Positions 38,266-53,473 of a stretch of 64,000 nt of DNA are shown here, piece after piece. The translations under genes and the position numbers were made by a program. The notes beneath the pieces are model-generated. The model was not told where the DNA came from. It saw only the letters and a list, made by a program, of their open reading frames with translations, and did not search any database. Origin of the DNA: Lachnospiraceae bacterium A4 (GTDB lineage Bacteria; Bacillota; Clostridia; Lachnospirales; Lachnospiraceae); assembly GCA_000403215.2 (NCBI GenBank), contig KE159529.1, positions 69,826 to 133,825 on the forward strand. The letters run 5' to 3'. Every line of letters begins with the position of its first letter. Position 1 is the first letter of the stretch.

Positions 38266-39354
38266 ATGAATCGTAAGAAAAAAAGAGGCGGCACTGAAGT
38301 CGCATTTCGCCCACAGACCATAATAGAGGCAAGATATGATCTGGACAGGCGGCAGAATGACATTCTCGATATTCTGCTTGGGATTGTTGGCGAGGGAGAT
38401 GACACGGAGGAAAACACACGCTATGAGATTAATATCGGAGATGTAAAGCACCTCTATAATCTTCAGGACGAGTCCAACGCGTACAGCTATCTCCAAAAAG
38501 CAGTGAAAAAATTTGAGGGGCTTGGTTTCCGTCTGAAGGAGGACGAGGGGACAGACATTTACTATCCATGGTTTAGCAAGATCAAATATCAGAAAAAGCG
38601 CGGAGACGAGAACCGCAGTAAAATTGTGCTGGACCTCCACCCGGAAGTCAAGGAAATGATCATGTCTGCCAAGCAGGGGGCATATTATAGAATCGAGTAT
38701 CCGCTCAATCTCACCAAAAAATATTCAAAGCGGCTCTACTATCTGCTAAAGGATAAGGAGACGTTCAACGGCGGAGTCTTTGTGATATCCTTTGACGAGC
38801 TTAGAAAGATGATGAAGATTCCGGAGTCTTACGCGAACGGGAATGTAAAACGTGAAATTCTTGATAAGCCTTATGAGGAGATTAACGGCAACACAGATAT
38901 TTCCTTTGAATATGAGCTGATTAGCGAGAAGCTGCCAAGCGGGCAGCATGGCATCAGCGCAGTGCGGTTTAAAGTAAAGCGGGTCAAGCGCAACAGCACA
39001 ATCGTTGAGTATGAGACGATTGAGGAAAATGGGGAGACGGTGTCAACCACCGAGGACGAGCAGGAGATTATTGATCTGTTTGACTGTAGTATCAAGGAGG
39101 CAAGAGATATACTGCGTACTGCAAAGGCAAATGACCGCACCCATGAACAACTGATCGAAATATTATCGTACACATTGAAAAAGCAGGTGGAAAACAAAGT
39201 CGGCTATGCACTTACCATCCTGAAAAACGGATACAATGAGCCGACAAAGCTGGGGGGCAGGCAGAACGGTTCTGCATGGAACAACAAAGATCTAGATACA
39301 GCGTACGCCCAGATGAATTTTGAGGATCTCGAGAAACAGTTGTTATCCAACTAA
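38266..39354 (+). CDS. Rep_3-family replication initiator-like protein
   Basis: The 362-aa protein starts at ATG 38266 behind AAAGAGG. It has the two winged-helix layout of plasmid RepA/RepB/RepE initiators: KHLYNLQDESNAYSYLQKAVKKFEGLGFRL in the first domain and YPLNLTKKYSKRLYYLLKDK...VISFDELRKMMKIPESY in the second. The C-terminal 100 residues are acidic and unlike the plasmid proteins I know. No iteron repeats were noticed next to it. Such genes on chromosomes occur in some Lachnospiraceae; the function there is unknown. Confidence 0.8.
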   Translation: MNRKKKRGGTEVAFRPQTIIEARYDLDRRQNDILDILLGIVGEGDDTEENTRYEINIGDVKHLYNLQDESNAYSYLQKAVKKFEGLGFRLKEDEGTDIYYPWFSKIKYQKKRGDENRSKIVLDLHPEVKEMIMSAKQGAYYRIEYPLNLTKKYSKRLYYLLKDKETFNGGVFVISFDELRKMMKIPESYANGNVKREILDKPYEEINGNTDISFEYELISEKLPSGQHGISAVRFKVKRVKRNSTIVEYETIEENGETVSTTEDEQEIIDLFDCSIKEARDILRTAKANDRTHEQLIEILSYTLKKQVENKVGYALTILKNGYNEPTKLGGRQNGSAWNNKDLDTAYAQMNFEDLEKQLLSN

Positions 39355-45084: not shown

Positions 45085-45116
45085 TAATAATATAGTCAGA
45101 CAAAAGGAGGGTGTAT

Positions 45117-45545
45117 ATGACCATATCGACAAAGGGAAGATACGCTTTGCGAATCATGCTGGATCTTGCGGGGCACCCCGGCGAGACCGTGAAGCTCAAG
45201 GAGATCGCTTCGAGACAGGGAATCTCGGAGAAATATATGGAGCAGATTATCGCAGTGCTGAACAAGGCTGGCTGTGTGCGAAGCACCCGCGGCGCACAGG
45301 GCGGCTACCAGCTCGTGAAGGCGCCCGCAGAATACACAGTCGGCATGATTCTCAGAATGACCGAAGGTTCTCTTGCGCCTGTAGAATGCCTTGCTGAGAA
45401 TGCACTTTCCTGCGAGCGGGAAGCCAGATGTGCCACGGTGGAGATTTACCGCCGCATCTATGAGGCAGTGAACCATGTGATAGATACGACAACATTACAG
45501 GAGCTCCTCGAAATCGAGCAGGAGAAAACAGAGTTGATTCAATAA
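45117..45545 (+). CDS. Rrf2/IscR-family iron-sulfur regulator
   Basis: ATG 45117 lies seven bases after AGGAGG. The 142-aa protein has an N-terminal winged helix (TISTKGRYALRIMLDLA, LKEIASRQGISEKYMEQIIAVL, STRGAQGGYQL) and the three-Cys cluster region VECLAENALSCEREARCAT used by IscR to hold a [2Fe-2S] cluster. It should sense Fe-S status and control the nifS-iscU genes that follow, probably through the palindrome in the promoter. Confidence 0.9.
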   Translation: MTISTKGRYALRIMLDLAGHPGETVKLKEIASRQGISEKYMEQIIAVLNKAGCVRSTRGAQGGYQLVKAPAEYTVGMILRMTEGSLAPVECLAENALSCEREARCATVEIYRRIYEAVNHVIDTTTLQELLEIEQEKTELIQ

Positions 45546-45559
45546 AGGAGGAAGAAAAA

Positions 45560-46756
45560 ATGATTTATCTTGACAATGCGGCGACAACCCGCGTCTCGGA
45601 GGAGGTATTCGAGGCAATGAAGCCGTATTTTTGTGAACAATATGCCAATCCATCATCCATATACAGCTTTGCAGGCAGCGCCGCAAAGGCAGTGGACGAG
45701 GCGCGCAGGCAGTCCGCGGCGCTCATCGGTGCACAGCCCAATGAGATTTATTTTACAGCGGGAGGCAGTGAGTCTGACAACTGGGCAGTCAAGGCGGCAG
45801 CGGAGGCGTCGGCAGCAAAGGGCAGGCACCTGATTACTTCCGCGATTGAACACCATGCGGTGCTGCATGCTTTTCAAGATCTGGAAAAACATGGCTATGA
45901 GGTGACATATGTTCAGGTGGGGGAGGACGGCATCGTAAAGCTCGATGAGCTGGAGGCAGCCATCAGACCGGACACGACACTCATTTCGATTATGGCGGCA
46001 AATAATGAAATCGGCACGATACAGCCCTTACAGGAAATCGGTGCGCTTGCGAAGAAAAACGGCATTCTTTTTCACACAGATGCTGTGCAGGCATACGGCC
46101 ATATCCCGCTTGATGTCGATGCACTCCACATCGATTTGCTGAGTGTCAGCGGCCATAAATTCCACGGGCCCAAGGGCATCGGATTTTTATATATTCGAAA
46201 AGGAGTTCGTATGGGGCCGTTGATTCATGGCGGGGCACAAGAGCGCGCACGCCGCGCCGGCACACATAACACGCCGGGCATTGTAGGGCTTGGCGCAGCG
46301 GCAGTGCGCGCCGCTGCACAGATGGAGGAGACCATCGAAAAAGAGACAAAACTGCGGGATTATCTGATTCAGAGAGTGCTGGCGGAAATCCCATACAGCA
46401 GGTTAAACGGTCATCCATCTAAGCGGCTGCCCAATAATGCAAATTTCTGTTTCCGCTTTATTGAGGGGGAATCCCTGCTGATTTTGTTAGATCAGAAAGG
46501 CATCTGTGCGTCGTCCGGCTCTGCGTGCACATCGGGTTCTCTTGACCCGTCTCATGTGCTGCTTGCCATCGGACTGCCGCATGAGATCGCACATGGTTCC
46601 CTTCGTCTGACACTCTCGGAAGAGACGACGCGGGAGGACATTGATGCCGCTGTCGAGGCGATCAAGAGCATCGTAGAGCGTCTGCGCGGCATGTCGCCAT
46701 TGTATGAGGATTTTGTCAAGGCGCAGAGAGATTCCAAGAGACGATTTTTTGAATAG
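45560..46756 (+). CDS. nifS: Cysteine desulfurase (NifS/IscS type)
   Basis: The 398-aa PLP enzyme takes sulfur from cysteine for Fe-S cluster and tRNA thiolation. It starts MIYLDNAATTRVSEEV behind AAAGGAGG, and the PLP Lys is in SVSGHKFHGPKG. The mobile catalytic Cys lies in CASSGSACTSGSLDPSHVL, the form seen in group I enzymes. The C-terminus is complete. It is followed after 15 bases by the scaffold gene. Confidence 0.93.
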   Translation: MIYLDNAATTRVSEEVFEAMKPYFCEQYANPSSIYSFAGSAAKAVDEARRQSAALIGAQPNEIYFTAGGSESDNWAVKAAAEASAAKGRHLITSAIEHHAVLHAFQDLEKHGYEVTYVQVGEDGIVKLDELEAAIRPDTTLISIMAANNEIGTIQPLQEIGALAKKNGILFHTDAVQAYGHIPLDVDALHIDLLSVSGHKFHGPKGIGFLYIRKGVRMGPLIHGGAQERARRAGTHNTPGIVGLGAAAVRAAAQMEETIEKETKLRDYLIQRVLAEIPYSRLNGHPSKRLPNNANFCFRFIEGESLLILLDQKGICASSGSACTSGSLDPSHVLLAIGLPHEIAHGSLRLTLSEETTREDIDAAVEAIKSIVERLRGMSPLYEDFVKAQRDSKRRFFE

Positions 46757-46771
46757 GAGGATAGAGACACA

Positions 46772-47206
46772 ATGTACAGTGAGAAGGTGATGGACCATTT
46801 CAACAATCCGCGCAATGTGGGCGAGCTTGAGCAGCCAAGCGGTGTGGGCACTGTCGGCAATGCAAAGTGCGGGGATATCATGCGAATGTATCTTGATATT
46901 GATGAAAACGGTGTGATTCAGGAAGCGAAATTCAAGACCTTTGGCTGCGGCGCTGCCGTGGCGACAAGCAGCATGGCGACAGAACTGGTAAAAGGAAAGA
47001 CTGTCCAGCAGGCGCTTGAAGTGACAAACAAGGCAGTAATGGAGGCGCTCGACGGACTGCCGCCTGCCAAGGTGCACTGCTCCCTGCTCGCAGAGGAGGC
47101 AATCCATGCGGCATTGTGGGATTACGCGGAAAAAAATAATCTGACCATCGAAGGCTTGGAAAAGCCGGTGGAGGACATCGAGGAAAAAAGGGGACAAATG
47201 ACATGA
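46772..47206 (+). CDS. iscU: Fe-S cluster scaffold IscU/NifU N-terminal type
   Basis: The 144-aa protein has the three scaffold Cys: NAKCGDIMRM, FKTFGCGAAVATS and AKVHCSLLAEEA, with the Asp after the first. It opens MYSEKVMDHFNNPRNVG. It assembles clusters with the cysteine desulfurase encoded upstream. Its stop overlaps the next start by four bases (ATGA), which couples it to a metallophosphoesterase. Confidence 0.93.
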   Translation: MYSEKVMDHFNNPRNVGELEQPSGVGTVGNAKCGDIMRMYLDIDENGVIQEAKFKTFGCGAAVATSSMATELVKGKTVQQALEVTNKAVMEALDGLPPAKVHCSLLAEEAIHAALWDYAEKNNLTIEGLEKPVEDIEEKRGQMT

Positions 47207-48619: not shown

Positions 48620-50785
48620 ATGGCAGAGCTATCTACAATATATGCAAAAAATAAAGAGATTGATCTGACAGCAGTGTCTGAGACAGACAAGGCAGTACAT
48701 CAGTATGTCTTTTCGGAAAATAAGAATATACAGAAGGAGGGGCGTTTTCCAGTGTATCTTGCGCTCAGCGAGCTGCGCCGGGGGCTCTTTAACTGGTACG
48801 ACTTTGGCAGTGATGCGGGAATCCTTGAGATTGGCGGCGGTTACGGCGCGCTGACAGGACTGTTCTGCGAGCGTGCTGCCGAGGTTGTCGTGACAGAGCG
48901 GTCGCTGTATCGAGCGCAGATTATGCAAAAGCGGTATGAGGACAGGGACAACCTGTCTATTTATGTTGGGGATATCTTGGATATGGCTTTTGAGAAAAAA
49001 TTTGACTATATTATATTGACAGGAATCTTAGAGCGCGCCGGAAAGGGTTCGTTTGACAAAGAGCCTTATGCATCCTATCTGCGGTCGCTTCAGCAGTTTC
49101 TCAAACCGGGAGGAATCCTCCTTGCGGCAGTGGACAACCGCTATGGGCTGCGCTATTTTGCCGGCATGAAAAATATTCATACAGGAAAGGTGTTTGACAG
49201 CATCCGCAAGTATCCAGAGGGAAACCGGGGGGCGCATTCCTTTACGCGCAGGGAGATTGACGATATCTGGGAGCAGGCGGGGTTTGACGCCACAAAAGTA
49301 TACTATCCATTGCCGGATTACAGACTTCCCCAGTTGATTTACACCGATGCATATCTGCCGGAGAACAACCTGCGAGAGCGGCTGATTCCCTATTATCCAG
49401 ATCATGTATCAGTGCTTTTTAATGAGAATCTTCTGTATGATGATCTGGTGGCAAATGAGGTGTTCCCATTTTTTGCAAACTCATTTCTTGTGGAGGCGGT
49501 GTATCAGGCTTCGGGCAGCAAAGAGGCTGCGGCAGGCGCTCTTGGCAAGGTGGTCTATGCCGCGGTGTCAACAGACCGCGGTGAGGAGAGGAGTTTTGCG
49601 ACTGTGATTTACGAGAATGACACCGTGGCAAAGCTTCCTTTATATAAAGAAGGAACACAAAGTATACAGCGCTTGGCAGCACATGTACAGGACCTTGCAG
49701 CGCATGGGCTGGACGTTGTGCCGCAGACAGTCAAAAACGGAAGCATCACCATGCCGCGCGTGCATCTGCCGATGCTTTCTAACTATATTAAGGAAATTAT
49801 TGCGCAGAAGCCAGAGCAGGTTCAGGAGATTGTCGAAAAGCTGTGGCAGAATATCCTTCGTTCCTCGGAGGAGGTCGATGCTTCGAAAAATATGCTGTTG
49901 ACACAGGATACCAGACATCTGCCGTGGGGCCCCATATTACAGAAGGTGTATATAGAGTTGATTCCGCTGAACTGCTTTTACCAGAATGGCGGATTTGTCT
50001 ATTTTGATCAGGAGTTTGTGCGTGAAAACTATCCTGCAAAGTATGCGCTGTTTCGCGCGGTGCACTATATTTATTGTTTTACAGAGCGCGCAGAGCAGTA
50101 TATTCCGCTTGGGTATTTTCTGGAAAAATACGAGCTGGGTGCACTTTGGCGGATTTTCAGGCAGGAGGAGGACCGCTTTTTGAGTGCGGTGCGCAGGCAT
50201 GAGGCGCACAAGGCATTCTACGGCTGGGCATATCCTGATGGCGCGCGAATGCAGCGCAATGTGGATAGGCTTAACAGCGCGGCGCCGTCTGTGAAAGTGT
50301 TTCAGATGGAGGCGCCGCAGAAGGAGGACAGCGCCGAGCGTCCGGCAGATGCCGCCGCAGGCGCCAAGCCATACCATATTGGGTATGTGCCGGGTGTCTT
50401 TGACTTGTTTCATGTGGGGCATTTGAATCTGATCAGGCGCTCTAAGCAGCGGTGCGAACATCTGATAGTGGGCGTCTTGACTGATGAGTTGGTAGAGCAT
50501 TTCAAGCACAAAAGGCCGCATATTCCTTATGAGCAGCGTGCGGCGGTCGTGGCGGCGATTCGCGAGGTCGATGAGGTGGTGGCGGTAGATTTTCACAACA
50601 CGAAGAAAATTGACGCGTGGAACCTGTATCATTTCGACTGCCATTTCTCCGGAAATGACCACGGGCCGGACTGGGACAGAGATTTGGCACAACTGCGCGC
50701 AGTCGGCTCTAATATGGAATTTTTCGAGTACACGCAGGGGATTAGCTCGACACAGATTAAAAAGCAGTTGGGAACGCAGCCGTAA
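48620..50785 (+). CDS. SAM methyltransferase fused to cytidylyltransferase-like domain (721 aa)
   Basis: Residues about 45-200 are a class-I methyltransferase (ILEIGGGYGALTGLFCERA, the SAM loop; YIILTGILERAG; FLKPGGILLAAVDNRYGLRY). Residues about 230-570 are an alpha-rich part without a known motif. Residues about 583-721 are a nucleotidyltransferase of the TagD/CCT type, with GYVPGVFDLFHVGHLNLIRR holding the HxGH motif and EYTQGISSTQIKKQL as the late signature. TagD and CCT make CDP-glycerol or CDP-choline. The combination suggests modification of a lipid or polymer head group, but this is inference. Confidence 0.8.
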   Translation: MAELSTIYAKNKEIDLTAVSETDKAVHQYVFSENKNIQKEGRFPVYLALSELRRGLFNWYDFGSDAGILEIGGGYGALTGLFCERAAEVVVTERSLYRAQIMQKRYEDRDNLSIYVGDILDMAFEKKFDYIILTGILERAGKGSFDKEPYASYLRSLQQFLKPGGILLAAVDNRYGLRYFAGMKNIHTGKVFDSIRKYPEGNRGAHSFTRREIDDIWEQAGFDATKVYYPLPDYRLPQLIYTDAYLPENNLRERLIPYYPDHVSVLFNENLLYDDLVANEVFPFFANSFLVEAVYQASGSKEAAAGALGKVVYAAVSTDRGEERSFATVIYENDTVAKLPLYKEGTQSIQRLAAHVQDLAAHGLDVVPQTVKNGSITMPRVHLPMLSNYIKEIIAQKPEQVQEIVEKLWQNILRSSEEVDASKNMLLTQDTRHLPWGPILQKVYIELIPLNCFYQNGGFVYFDQEFVRENYPAKYALFRAVHYIYCFTERAEQYIPLGYFLEKYELGALWRIFRQEEDRFLSAVRRHEAHKAFYGWAYPDGARMQRNVDRLNSAAPSVKVFQMEAPQKEDSAERPADAAAGAKPYHIGYVPGVFDLFHVGHLNLIRRSKQRCEHLIVGVLTDELVEHFKHKRPHIPYEQRAAVVAAIREVDEVVAVDFHNTKKIDAWNLYHFDCHFSGNDHGPDWDRDLAQLRAVGSNMEFFEYTQGISSTQIKKQLGTQP

Positions 50786-50823: not shown

Positions 50824-50860
50824 TTGATAAGTTCAACAAAGTGCACTATACTATAGTATA
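50824..50860 (+). promoter_or_regulatory. Strong promoter with a 14-base palindrome over the -10 box
   Basis: TTGATA (50824-50829) and TATACT (50847-50852) are 17 bases apart. The -10 is part of TATACTATAGTATA (50847-50860), a perfect palindrome that could be an operator. The RBS GAGGAGG lies just ahead of the ATG at 50903. Confidence 0.7.
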
Positions 50861-50902: not shown

Positions 50903-53473
50903 ATGAAGTATGTAATTTTAGGCGGCGTGGCGGCGGGCACCAAAGCCGCGGCGAAGCTAAAGCGCTTGGACAGGCAGGCGGAGGTGGTTATCTTTACGAA
51001 AAGCACAGATATCTCCTACGCGGGCTGTGGTCTGCCATACTATATTGGCGGCGACATTGCCACCAGAGACGAGCTGATTGTCAATTCGCCGGAAAAGTAT
51101 GCAGGGCTTACGGGGGCGCAGGTGCAGACAGGCTGTGAGGCCGTCGGCATAGACAGCAGCGCGAAGCAGGTGTCCATACGCCGCACAGACGGCAGCAGTT
51201 TTACAGAAAATTATGACAAGCTGATTATTGCGACCGGGGCAGCGCCCTTTGTGCCGCCGGTGGACGGCGTGGGACTGGCTGGGGCATTCTGCGTGCGCAC
51301 ACCAGATGATGCCGTGGCAATCCGCGCTTACGCGGAGGTGAACAACTGCCGCCGTGCGGTGGTGTGCGGCGCTGGTTTTATCGGGCTTGAGGTGGCGGAG
51401 AACCTCGCTGCGATGAAGCTGGACGTGACCGTGATCGACGCCGCGCCGCAGATTATGCCAAATGCCTTTGACGCGGACATGGCTGGATATGCCAAACGCC
51501 AGCTCAAGGCGGGCGGAATGCGTGTACTGACCTCTGTGAGTCTCAGGGGAATCAACGGAGGAGACCACGTGGAGAGTGTCACCACCGACGGGGGCACGCT
51601 GCAAGCAGAGCTCGTCATTCTTGCGATCGGTGTGCGGCCGGCAACCGCATTTTTGAAGGATTCAGGGATTGAGATGTTCAAGGACACGATTCTGGTGGAC
51701 GAGGAAATGCGGACAAACCTCGCAGACATCTATGCGGTGGGGGACTGTGCGATGGTCAAAAATGCGCTGACCGGCAAACCGCAGTGGTCTGCAATGGGCT
51801 CGACAGCCAACCTTGCCGCCCGCGCAATGGCAAAGAAGCTGCATAATCAGGGCAATGGCTATGGCGGCTGTCTGGGGACTGGTGTTGTGCGTCTGCTGCC
51901 CACGCTCAATGGCGGCAGGACAGGTCTGACGCACGAGCAGGCAGAAGCGGCTGGGCTGGAGGCGACATCTGTTGTCTGTGTGCTGGATGACAAAGCGCAT
52001 TACTATCCCGGCGCCTCCTCCTTTATCGTCAAGCTTACCGCAGAGACAAAGAGCCGCAGACTGCTCGGCATACAGGTGCTTGGCGCAGGGGCGGTTGACA
52101 AGATGGTGGACATCGCAGTGACAGGAATTTATCAGGGAATGAAGCTGGATGATTTTGACACGATGGATTTTGCCTATGCGCCGCCGTTCTCCACCGCAAT
52201 CCATCCGTTTGTCACGGCATGCTACATACTGGAAAACAAGCTGGACGGCGTGCTTGAGAGCATGAGCCCGTCAGAGTACGCTTCGGGTGCGGCGAAGGAG
52301 TACACCGTATTGGACGCCCTGCCAGCGGCAACAATTCCAAATGCAAAATGGGTGAATCTCTCCAAAGTGACAGCGCCGATCGAGGGGCTGGACAAAGATG
52401 CAAAGCTGCTGCTTGTGTGCGCAAAGGGCAAGCGGGGATACTTTTTACAGAACCGCCTGAAAGCGCTTGGCTACACAAACACCCTTGTCTTGGAGGGCGG
52501 CATCACCTTCAACGATGTTCGGGTGCCGCGAAATGGCAGAAAGCTCTCACCGGAGGACATCAAGCGCGTGAAGGGGCTTGGCTGCCTGCAGGATAAGCGC
52601 TATGACGATATCTTCAATGTGCGTGTTATCACGAGAAACGGCAAGATTACGGCGGACGAGCAGAAAAAAATTGCCGAGGCGGCGGAAAAGTTTGGCACAG
52701 GCGAGGTGACGATGACCACGCGTCTGACACTGGAAATCCAAGGCGTGCCGTATGACAGCATTGATGATGTGCGCGCATTTCTGGCAGAGGCAGGGTTGGA
52801 GACCGGCGGCACCGGCTCTAAAGTGCGTCCTGTGGTTTCCTGCAAGGGGACGACTTGCCAGTATGGTCTGATTGACACGTTTGATCTCTCACAGAAGCTG
52901 CATGACCTGTATTACGAGGGCTATCATGATGTCTCCCTGCCGCACAAGTTCAAGATTGCAGTCGGCGGCTGTCCGAATAACTGTGTGAAACCGGATTTGA
53001 ACGATCTTGGCATCGTCGGACAGCGCGTGCCGGAGATTGATTTATCGAAGTGCCGCGGCTGCAGTGTGTGTCAGGTGGAGAAGGGATGCCCGATTCATGT
53101 CGCGCAGATGCAGGAGGGAAAGATACAGATTGACGCGGAGGCGTGCAACCACTGTGGACGCTGTGTCAACAAGTGCCCGTTTGGCGCAGTAAATGAGTCC
53201 GCAGCCGGTTATCGGATTTACATCGGCGGCCGCTGGGGCAAGAAGGTGGCACAGGGACATATGCTCGACAAGCTGTTTACCTCGGAGGAGGAAGTGATTG
53301 ATCTGGTAGAGCGCGCGATCTTATTTTTCCGCGACGAGGGAAATTCCGGGGAGCGCTTTGCGGACACCATCGACCGGCTGGGATTTGACTATGTGCAGGA
53401 AAAACTGTTACATCATGCGATTGACCGCGAGGCGGTTTTGAAGAAAAACGTCGTAGGCGGGGCAACGTGTTAG
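50903..53473 (+). CDS. CoA-disulfide reductase / rhodanese / siroheme / ferredoxin fusion (856 aa)
   Basis: Residues 1-445 are a class of FAD/NAD(P) reductase with GGVAAG, the single redox Cys in YAGCGLPYY (residue 42), a second GAGFIGLEVAENL site and AVGDCA, as in CoA-disulfide and polysulfide reductases. Residues 455-545 form a rhodanese with its Cys in LLVCAKGKRGYF. From about 605 there is a sulfite/nitrite-reductase-like part with VSCKGTTCQYG and GGCPNNC, the four Cys that hold a 4Fe-4S next to siroheme. Two ferredoxin sites follow, CRGCSVCQVEKGCP and CNHCGRCVNKCP. It probably reduces a sulfur species. Confidence 0.85.
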   Translation: MKYVILGGVAAGTKAAAKLKRLDRQAEVVIFTKSTDISYAGCGLPYYIGGDIATRDELIVNSPEKYAGLTGAQVQTGCEAVGIDSSAKQVSIRRTDGSSFTENYDKLIIATGAAPFVPPVDGVGLAGAFCVRTPDDAVAIRAYAEVNNCRRAVVCGAGFIGLEVAENLAAMKLDVTVIDAAPQIMPNAFDADMAGYAKRQLKAGGMRVLTSVSLRGINGGDHVESVTTDGGTLQAELVILAIGVRPATAFLKDSGIEMFKDTILVDEEMRTNLADIYAVGDCAMVKNALTGKPQWSAMGSTANLAARAMAKKLHNQGNGYGGCLGTGVVRLLPTLNGGRTGLTHEQAEAAGLEATSVVCVLDDKAHYYPGASSFIVKLTAETKSRRLLGIQVLGAGAVDKMVDIAVTGIYQGMKLDDFDTMDFAYAPPFSTAIHPFVTACYILENKLDGVLESMSPSEYASGAAKEYTVLDALPAATIPNAKWVNLSKVTAPIEGLDKDAKLLLVCAKGKRGYFLQNRLKALGYTNTLVLEGGITFNDVRVPRNGRKLSPEDIKRVKGLGCLQDKRYDDIFNVRVITRNGKITADEQKKIAEAAEKFGTGEVTMTTRLTLEIQGVPYDSIDDVRAFLAEAGLETGGTGSKVRPVVSCKGTTCQYGLIDTFDLSQKLHDLYYEGYHDVSLPHKFKIAVGGCPNNCVKPDLNDLGIVGQRVPEIDLSKCRGCSVCQVEKGCPIHVAQMQEGKIQIDAEACNHCGRCVNKCPFGAVNESAAGYRIYIGGRWGKKVAQGHMLDKLFTSEEEVIDLVERAILFFRDEGNSGERFADTIDRLGFDYVQEKLLHHAIDREAVLKKNVVGGATC

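Follow-up and report, generated by a model that had tools for sequence, protein, structure and literature searches.

Two kinds of described enzyme are closest to the gene studied here. According to the available text of PMC10229431, Fsr has one sulfite-reductase repeat per chain, interrupted by a two-cluster ferredoxin, and it binds siroheme as a homodimer, in which the second chain supplies half of the electron relay; the accessible part of PMC3448663 classes AsrC with this single-repeat kind. The coenzyme A (CoA)-persulfide and NADH-dependent persulfide reductases (8a56, 6pfz, 3ict and 3nt6) have in common a flavin adenine dinucleotide (FAD)/NAD module, a redox Cys and a C-terminal rhodanese. 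We analysed a 64,000-nucleotide stretch of the Lachnospiraceae bacterium A4 genome (GCA_000403215.2, contig KE159529.1, positions 69,826 to 133,825 of the forward strand; the window), in which one gene (50903..53473, + strand) encodes an 856-residue fusion of a CoA-disulfide reductase (CoADR)-rhodanese half with an Fsr/AsrC-type sulfite reductase half. Judged from its sequence and its relatives, the product is fairly probably a one-chain siroheme sulfite reductase that is driven by NADH and is coupled through a terminal cysteine to persulfide chemistry. This reading is supported by the modules, their intact ligands, the way a C-terminal tail co-occurs with the CoADR-rhodanese half, and the context of siroheme genes.

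Domain organisation of the fusion

The gene is a single unbroken frame from an ATG at 50903 to a stop codon at 53471–53473, and its extent agrees with Pfam and with the loci of relatives. Pfam orders the modules as a CoA-persulfide-reductase-type flavoprotein, a rhodanese and a single Fsr-type sulfite-reductase repeat that holds an inserted two-cluster ferredoxin. The original prediction of a five-module protein in one frame is thus borne out, and the motifs that it cited (the redox Cys, the rhodanese Cys, the siroheme-type cluster Cys and two 4Fe-4S motifs) are all intact in the translation. The A4 genome has one copy of the fusion.

The N-terminal half (all features of the gene are on the + strand) starts with an FAD/NAD(P)-binding module at residues 1–289 (50903..51769; Pyr_redox_2, 4.5e-59), in which the SxxxCGLP motif is present as SYAGCGLP with redox Cys42 (51026..51028). 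A pyridine nucleotide-disulfide dimerisation domain follows at residues 338–433 (51914..52201; Pyr_redox_dim, 1.1e-12), and then a C-terminal rhodanese at residues 455–534 (52265..52504; Pfam Rhodanese, 7e-7) with active-site Cys506 in CAKGKRGY (52418..52420). Both cysteines are invariant in 37/37 rows of alignment A2. The top solved relative is the CoA-persulfide reductase 8a56 (1.5e-93 over residues 2–525), followed by 6pfz (3.9e-83), an entry titled as the NAD-dependent persulfide reductase of A. fulgidus in which the chain bears the name NADH oxidase NoxA-3. The predicted fold agrees (mean predicted local distance difference test score, pLDDT, 85.7; Foldseek 2.0e-57 to 8a56), as expected for the persulfide-reductase-type half that had been proposed. 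In fold alignments, identity to 8a56, 6pfz, 3ict and 3nt6 is 29–35 percent across this half, and the fusion differs from these enzymes in having ∼310 extra residues with siroheme and 4Fe-4S sites. Because its scores fall below the NCBIfam cut-offs for CoA-disulfide reductase (TIGR03385, 356.1 of 578.8 bits; NF007123, 363.2 of 458), the N-terminal half is placed near that family, outside it.

In the C-terminal half, a sulfite reductase ferredoxin-like half domain spans residues 569–630 (52607..52792; NIR_SIR_ferr, 6.6e-14) and contains R574 and R607. The siroheme/4Fe-4S domain covers residues 638–835 (52814..53407; NIR_SIR, 8.6e-31) and includes R642, K682 and K684 as well as the cluster motif CKGTTC...CPNNC, whose cysteines are Cys647, 652, 690 and 694. 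This motif, beyond what the original prediction described, has the form CX4C-Xn-CX3C and is one residue shorter than the CX5C-Xn-CX3C of Fsr. The inserted 2x[4Fe-4S] ferredoxin lies at residues 716–763 (53048..53191; Fer4_7, 2e-6; Fer4_6, 3e-9); all Fer4 models fall inside residues 711–763, and the two 4Fe-4S motifs begin at C717 and C748.

Fsr (7np8) matched the C-terminal half at 4.2e-41, and a whole-protein search recovered it at 2.9e-40 over residues 565–833. A model of residues 547–856 (mean pLDDT 81.3) also had Fsr as its top fold match (5.9e-21; template modelling score 0.73 by query length), followed by DsrAB and then by the aSir and NirA types. The available text of PMC10229431 assigns sulfite binding in MjFsr to Arg355, Arg423, Lys460 and Lys462 and describes Arg388 as a trait of assimilatory enzymes. 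These residues align with R574, R642, K682 and K684, and with R607, respectively, and all five are invariant in alignments A1 (25 rows), A2 (37) and A4 (41). Only half of a sulfite reductase had seemed to be present, and siroheme binding had been doubted for that reason. Since Fsr chains likewise carry a single repeat, and bind siroheme when paired as homodimers, a single-repeat module is no argument against siroheme, and the idea that half a sulfite reductase means no siroheme is ruled out by this precedent together with the aligned sulfite residues and the Fsr-like fold.

The fusion differs from each of its closest counterparts. With Fsr and the group III Dsr-LP proteins it shares the single repeat with an inserted two-cluster ferredoxin, the sulfite-binding residues and a flavin module fused in front; however, that module is CoADR-rhodanese in the fusion and an F420H2 oxidase in Fsr, so the N-terminal half is not of the Fsr type, and the alignment stops at about residue 833, leaving the tail with its terminal Cys unmatched in Fsr. 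AsrC of AsrABC is the same kind of single-repeat module, but the fusion scores below the AsrC cut-off (TIGR02912, 111.1 of 324.1 bits) and has CoADR-rhodanese in place of AsrA and AsrB, neither of which was found among six neighbouring genes scanned with NCBIfam. NirB likewise places a flavoprotein before NIR_SIR_ferr and NIR_SIR in one chain, whereas the fusion has two 4Fe-4S clusters and a rhodanese, scores below the NirB cut-off (TIGR02374, 246.2 of 578.35 bits) and gave no Pfam hit at E 0.001 or less for the BFD 2Fe-2S domain, a NirB trait.

A terminal cysteine tail accompanies the CoADR-rhodanese partner

The protein ends in GGATC (53456..53470), its last residue being Cys856, and this conserved end was absent from the original prediction. 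Among distinct rows, GGA[TSK]C ends 98/98 modules with a CoADR-rhodanese partner and 0/22 without one. Of the partnered modules, 81 are fused, 13 belong to adjacent pairs and 4 have an in-frame rhodanese with the N-terminal side cut, while the partnerless ones comprise 7 of the same subfamily and 15 of an assimilatory-looking subfamily. Rows sharing the last 120 residues were counted once, L019 (cut at the tail) was left out, L106 and L160 are absent, and L021 and L027 were taken as pairs, a CoADR-rhodanese frame adjoining both. On the tree, partner and tail change 4 times each and are concordant in 3/3 independent pairs; L028 clusters with fused proteins yet has neither partner nor tail. This co-occurrence makes it most likely that the tail functions jointly with the CoADR-rhodanese half, serving as an arm for sulfur or electrons.

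The C-terminal cysteines of DsrC are what we take to be the comparable arm. DsrAB hands a sulfur intermediate over from its siroheme to DsrC (available text of PMC10229431). We use it as a precedent in function and mechanism only and claim no relatedness; the fusion has one terminal Cys, on its own chain.

Distribution of the fusion and of its separate halves

A scan of named genomes gave at least 594 encoding stretches, of which the best 80 were kept; 79 of these were readable (L106 gave no row) and comprised 76 full-length fusions and 3 truncated by a contig edge. L094, which has the rhodanese Cys, is a fusion. Hosts among the best 80 include Lachnospiraceae, Oscillospiraceae, Holdemania, Atopobiaceae, Collinsella and one Spirochaetales metagenome-assembled genome (MAG), and for the C-terminal part the best relatives from named genomes, 89–90 percent identical, are Lachnospiraceae. 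The same two halves also occur as neighbouring separate genes. When domain orders were compared in 150 genomes of the family, among the matches listed 10 genomes had the fusion (one of them, G021, read across a contig break), 14 an adjacent gene pair and 7 a solo module of the same subfamily. L019–L022 and L027 are true pairs with stop codons between both genes. Because pairs branch outside the fusions on the tree, the fusion appears to be the derived state, with modest support; the 4 changes counted for the fused state are an overcount, as L094 is a fusion. Among plasmids, no place covering 80 percent was found in the best 5000 records, and the 20 rows listed had 29.6–35.1 percent identity.

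Two solo modules have other surroundings. At L030 (1063–2421), a solo sulfite-reductase module has ∼140 additional N-terminal residues bearing Cys/Gly motifs, an extension that by eye we take to resemble a GCxxG-type domain. At L039 (4317–6091), a tailless solo module adjoins a membrane protein, presumably, by its look, a TauE/SafE exporter.

Sulfite and siroheme genes near the fusion

We compiled gene context for 107 loci with an anchor, some stretches having been fetched twice (e.g. L042 and L143); neighbour gene names were transferred by BLAST from a few profile-scanned examples. Of the 107 loci, 36 have a LysR gene within 9 kb, and in 24 of these it is the next gene upstream, divergently oriented. 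The one LysR scanned with NCBIfam scored highest with YeiE (196 bits, under the cut-off of 480), a protein that PMC12880088 describes as binding sulfite and as controlling yeiH in resistance to sulfite. A YeiH-like gene is near 4/107 loci, and the one scanned is above the Pfam and under the NCBIfam cut-off. Siroheme-related genes near the 107 loci were CbiK (8), SirC (9), CobA-HemD (7), HemB (6) and HemL (6), together with FecB (24) and FecCD (19), and a FecBCDE-type ATP-binding cassette transporter is often found 3′ of the fusion gene. A location near siroheme-synthesis genes, or near a transporter that apparently takes their place, further counters the earlier doubt about siroheme. At L145, L206, L208 and L209 there are assimilatory-type sulfite-reductase genes, the latter three also with FecB near. 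By eye we take the surroundings of these four loci to resemble TusA, ThiF/MoeB and JAMM sulfur-carrier genes.

A FecBCDE-type transporter tracks the siroheme enzymes

From the 80 named loci, 50 were chosen for a survey of siroheme synthesis in their genomes: 22 have FecB downstream and 28 do not. Completeness is not given for these genomes, some of which are small MAGs, and absences are counts from six-frame profile searches. CobA was above its cut-off in 2/22 genomes with downstream FecB versus 23/28 without, HemB was present in 0/22 versus 16/28 and HemC in 0/22 versus 19/28. CbiK was above its cut-off in 29/50 hosts. We then scored FecB with a profile of 17 rows (A5), calling a match strong at E<1e-60, a cut set after a gap was seen (1.1e-62 to 2.1e-25). 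With the A4 genome and G051 added to the 50, strong FecB occurs in 29/33 genomes without HemC and in 0/19 with HemC (Fisher 1.2e-10, kinship ignored), an association that is partly built in, since 17 of the 29 are A5 rows and another 6 had been chosen because FecB adjoins the locus. The informative subset lacks both HemC and an adjacent FecB, and there strong FecB is found in 6/10 genomes (A4, G172, G173, G189, G191 and G192; not G186, G193, G194 or G196) versus 0/19 with HemC (P = 0.0004). When transporter and HemC were compared on trees, between 2 and 4 independent pairs were informative; none ran against the association, but the number is too small for significance. L082, L102, L108 and L126, the loci of G186, G193, G194 and G196, have the fusion, and searches of these genomes returned no CobA above cut-off, HemB, HemC or strong FecB.

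The 150 family genomes, which include A4 and of whose FecB proteins that of G051 alone is a row of the profile, gave a second, more independent test. NIR_SIR was found in 71, CobA above cut-off in 69, SirC above cut-off in 71 and FecB at E<1e-60 in 14; HemB and HemC were scored within this set for A4 and G051. All 14 strong-FecB genomes carry NIR_SIR and 0/79 NIR_SIR-less genomes reach the cut (P = 1.3e-5; 2.8e-5 without G051). The 71 NIR_SIR genomes divide into 57 with CobA alone, 5 with both, 9 with strong FecB alone and 0 with neither. A laxer FecB cut of 1e-20 weakens the link (15/71 with NIR_SIR versus 5/79 without, P = 0.009); among the weaker-FecB genomes G016, G018, G047, G054, G110 and G143 (2.1e-25 to 6.0e-21), only G110 has NIR_SIR.

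Neighbours of strong FecB were read in 13 of the 14 genomes, all but G019. Strong FecB adjoins a CysG-like gene in G008, G074 and G122 (CysG above cut-off in G074) and CbiK in G077, and follows the fusion in G051. In G135, twice, an assimilatory-type sulfite reductase gene is adjacent or is separated from it by one small gene; in G072 it is beside asrA-asrB-asrC, all three above their cut-offs, with look-alikes in G069 and G071; and in G062 a NIR_SIR gene is ∼7.5 kb away. G189, outside the 150, has CbiK-FecB-FecCD-FecE. No siroheme-type neighbour was seen at the FecB places of G000, G020 and G149. Hence the transporter accompanies siroheme reductases of three kinds. FecB-FecCD-FecE also lies directly beside asrA-asrB-asrC at L211, L212 and L216, and the three Asr proteins of L212 exceed their NCBIfam cut-offs.

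The A4 genome has CysG above cut-off (411.4 of 400 bits; L142, 9423–10823), and profile searches of this 97.65 percent complete genome found no HemB and no HemC; HemC was likewise not found in G051. FecB, FecCD and FecE are together on a different contig of A4 from the fusion (FecB at G000 C15:20256–21275), and its FecB is under the NCBIfam cut-offs for the heme and vitamin B12 substrate-binding proteins IsdE (89.8 of 298.65 bits) and BtuF (46.2 of 234). Three basic FecB residues, R262, K273 and K362 (L089 numbering), are each kept in 22/22, which is compatible with an eight-carboxylate ligand and no proof of one; siderophore-binding proteins likewise use basic residues.

With HemB and HemC not found, A4 could make siroheme only from an external precursor, for example uroporphyrinogen III; CbiK-only hosts would need sirohydrochlorin, and hosts with neither CysG nor CbiK would need siroheme itself. 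All these needs would be covered by a transporter for eight-carboxylate tetrapyrroles. Ordinary iron, heme or B12 uptake by FecBCDE is a possible alternative, but it leaves unexplained why strong FecB is absent from all 79 family genomes that lack NIR_SIR and why FecB is located beside three kinds of sulfite reductase. Many hosts, A4 included, probably import siroheme or an eight-carboxylate precursor via this transporter.

Proposed mechanism and alternatives

We propose that NADH, rather than NADPH, would reduce the FAD of the CoADR module, and that electrons would pass from FAD through the two inserted 4Fe-4S clusters to the siroheme-4Fe-4S centre, which would reduce sulfite to sulfide. Cys42, Cys506 and Cys856 may form a persulfide-handling path that cooperates with the siroheme site, with Cys856 as a mobile arm that could ferry sulfur or reducing equivalents between the siroheme and persulfide sites. 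The original prediction had electrons moving from NAD(P)H or ferredoxin to a sulfur species; a route from NAD(P)H is consistent with our data, and by analogy with Fsr the two clusters would be an internal relay and not a docking site for an external ferredoxin.

Several observations weigh against this proposal. In the available text of PMC10229431, aSir and Fsr make sulfide directly with no released or carried intermediates, so sulfite reduction itself needs no arm, and single-electron transfer from the CoADR FAD to a 4Fe-4S cluster is a proposed step only. The CX4C spacing departs from the CX5C of Fsr, yet solo relatives show either spacing. Model confidence is low in places, with pLDDT <50 at residues 648–652 (the cluster loop) and 854–856 (the tail), and at residues 92–105 and 308–310 of the separate C-terminal model, which leaves Cys856 unplaced. 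The tail-partner tree test has 3 pairs, too few for significance. Finally, six-frame profiles did not find HemC in 31/50 or HemB in 34/50 host genomes, and G186, G193, G194 and G196, all without HemC, show no strong FecB match.

The alternative that survives best, although we consider it rather unlikely, is a complete thiosulfate (or polythionate) reductase. Here the rhodanese would take the sulfane sulfur and free sulfite, CoADR would reduce the persulfide and the siroheme module the sulfite, turning thiosulfate into two sulfides. This would give a task to each module and to the invariant Cys42, Cys506 and Cys856, and the available part of PMC5573963 lists a rhodanese-like protein with a possible role in respiratory thiosulfate reduction. 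However, the single LysR neighbour scanned is similar to a sulfite sensor, and thiosulfate is not a substrate of Fsr according to the available text of PMC10229431, though Fsr has no rhodanese.

A plain NADH sulfite reductase is less likely still. CoADR-rhodanese would then serve as electron input only, like the flavin modules of NirB, Fsr and AsrB, and the rhodanese and tail would be structural; a flavoprotein precedes NIR_SIR as in NirB, whose model TIGR02374 gives the fusion 246 bits, under the cut-off of 578, and the available text of PMC10229431 has Fsr using its flavin module as electron input. The invariance of the redox, rhodanese and terminal Cys (37/37) would be unexpected for a mere diaphorase.

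We regard a siroheme-free protein, a persulfide reductase with an iron-sulfur appendage, as very improbable: the missing HemC and HemB of the survey, of A4 (both) and of G051 (HemC) would fit it, but residues of the sulfite site and of the cluster never vary across the 37 rows of A2, hosts without HemC among them, and strong FecB occurs in 29/33 genomes without HemC versus 0/19 with it (23 of the 29 being profile rows or selected for a neighbouring FecB). A chance string of motifs is ruled out by the Pfam hits, the matches to 8a56 (1.5e-93) and 7np8 (2.9e-40) and the full-length fusions in relatives.

Genomic surroundings of the gene

A promoter-like site, TTGATA-17-TATACT (50824..50852, + strand; 10/12 consensus matches), ends 50 bases 5′ of the ATG; sites of 9 or more matches number 5 in the stretch searched versus 1.4 expected. 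By eye, both hexamers are also upstream in the close relatives L060–L065, and because of this site and its recurrence the fusion gene may be read on its own. The -10 region is overlapped by a perfect palindrome, TATACTATAGTATA (50847–50860), 1 of 5 perfect 14-mers in the 64 kb; we dropped it as a regulatory palindrome, as inspection by eye showed no copy upstream in 15 relatives.

Just upstream of the fusion (48620–50785) is a 721-residue open reading frame with an S-adenosylmethionine methyltransferase domain (63–225) and a cytidylyltransferase-like domain (589–715), and beyond it are Rrf2-IscS-IscU (45111–47206). In L060–L065, IscS and IscU, mostly with Rrf2, are directly upstream of the fusion. 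A Rep3-type plasmid replication initiator (38266–39354; Rep3_N 2.1e-19) is on the same 210-kb contig, which also has chromosome-like genes, and this region is possibly an integrated plasmid or element.

Implications

In the open-licence literature, no title or abstract opening among the matches names the fusion or siroheme uptake. Our wider proposal, which we hold to be about as likely right as wrong, is that reductase owners unable to make the cofactor from scratch import siroheme or its precursors (uroporphyrinogen III, precorrin-2 and sirohydrochlorin) by a dedicated FecBCDE-type transporter, siroheme being a shared cofactor like B12, and that the terminal Cys arm of the fused enzyme couples siroheme and persulfide chemistry, possibly splitting thiosulfate. 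The fusion would be an NADH-linked way, based on persulfide chemistry, of powering an Fsr/AsrC-type sulfite reductase. It would also yield sulfide that goes unnoticed in surveys limited to dsrAB or asrABC. The terminal Cys would be a simple test case for a siroheme enzyme carrying its own DsrC-like arm, and the FecBCDE transporter is a gene-level candidate for siroheme uptake.

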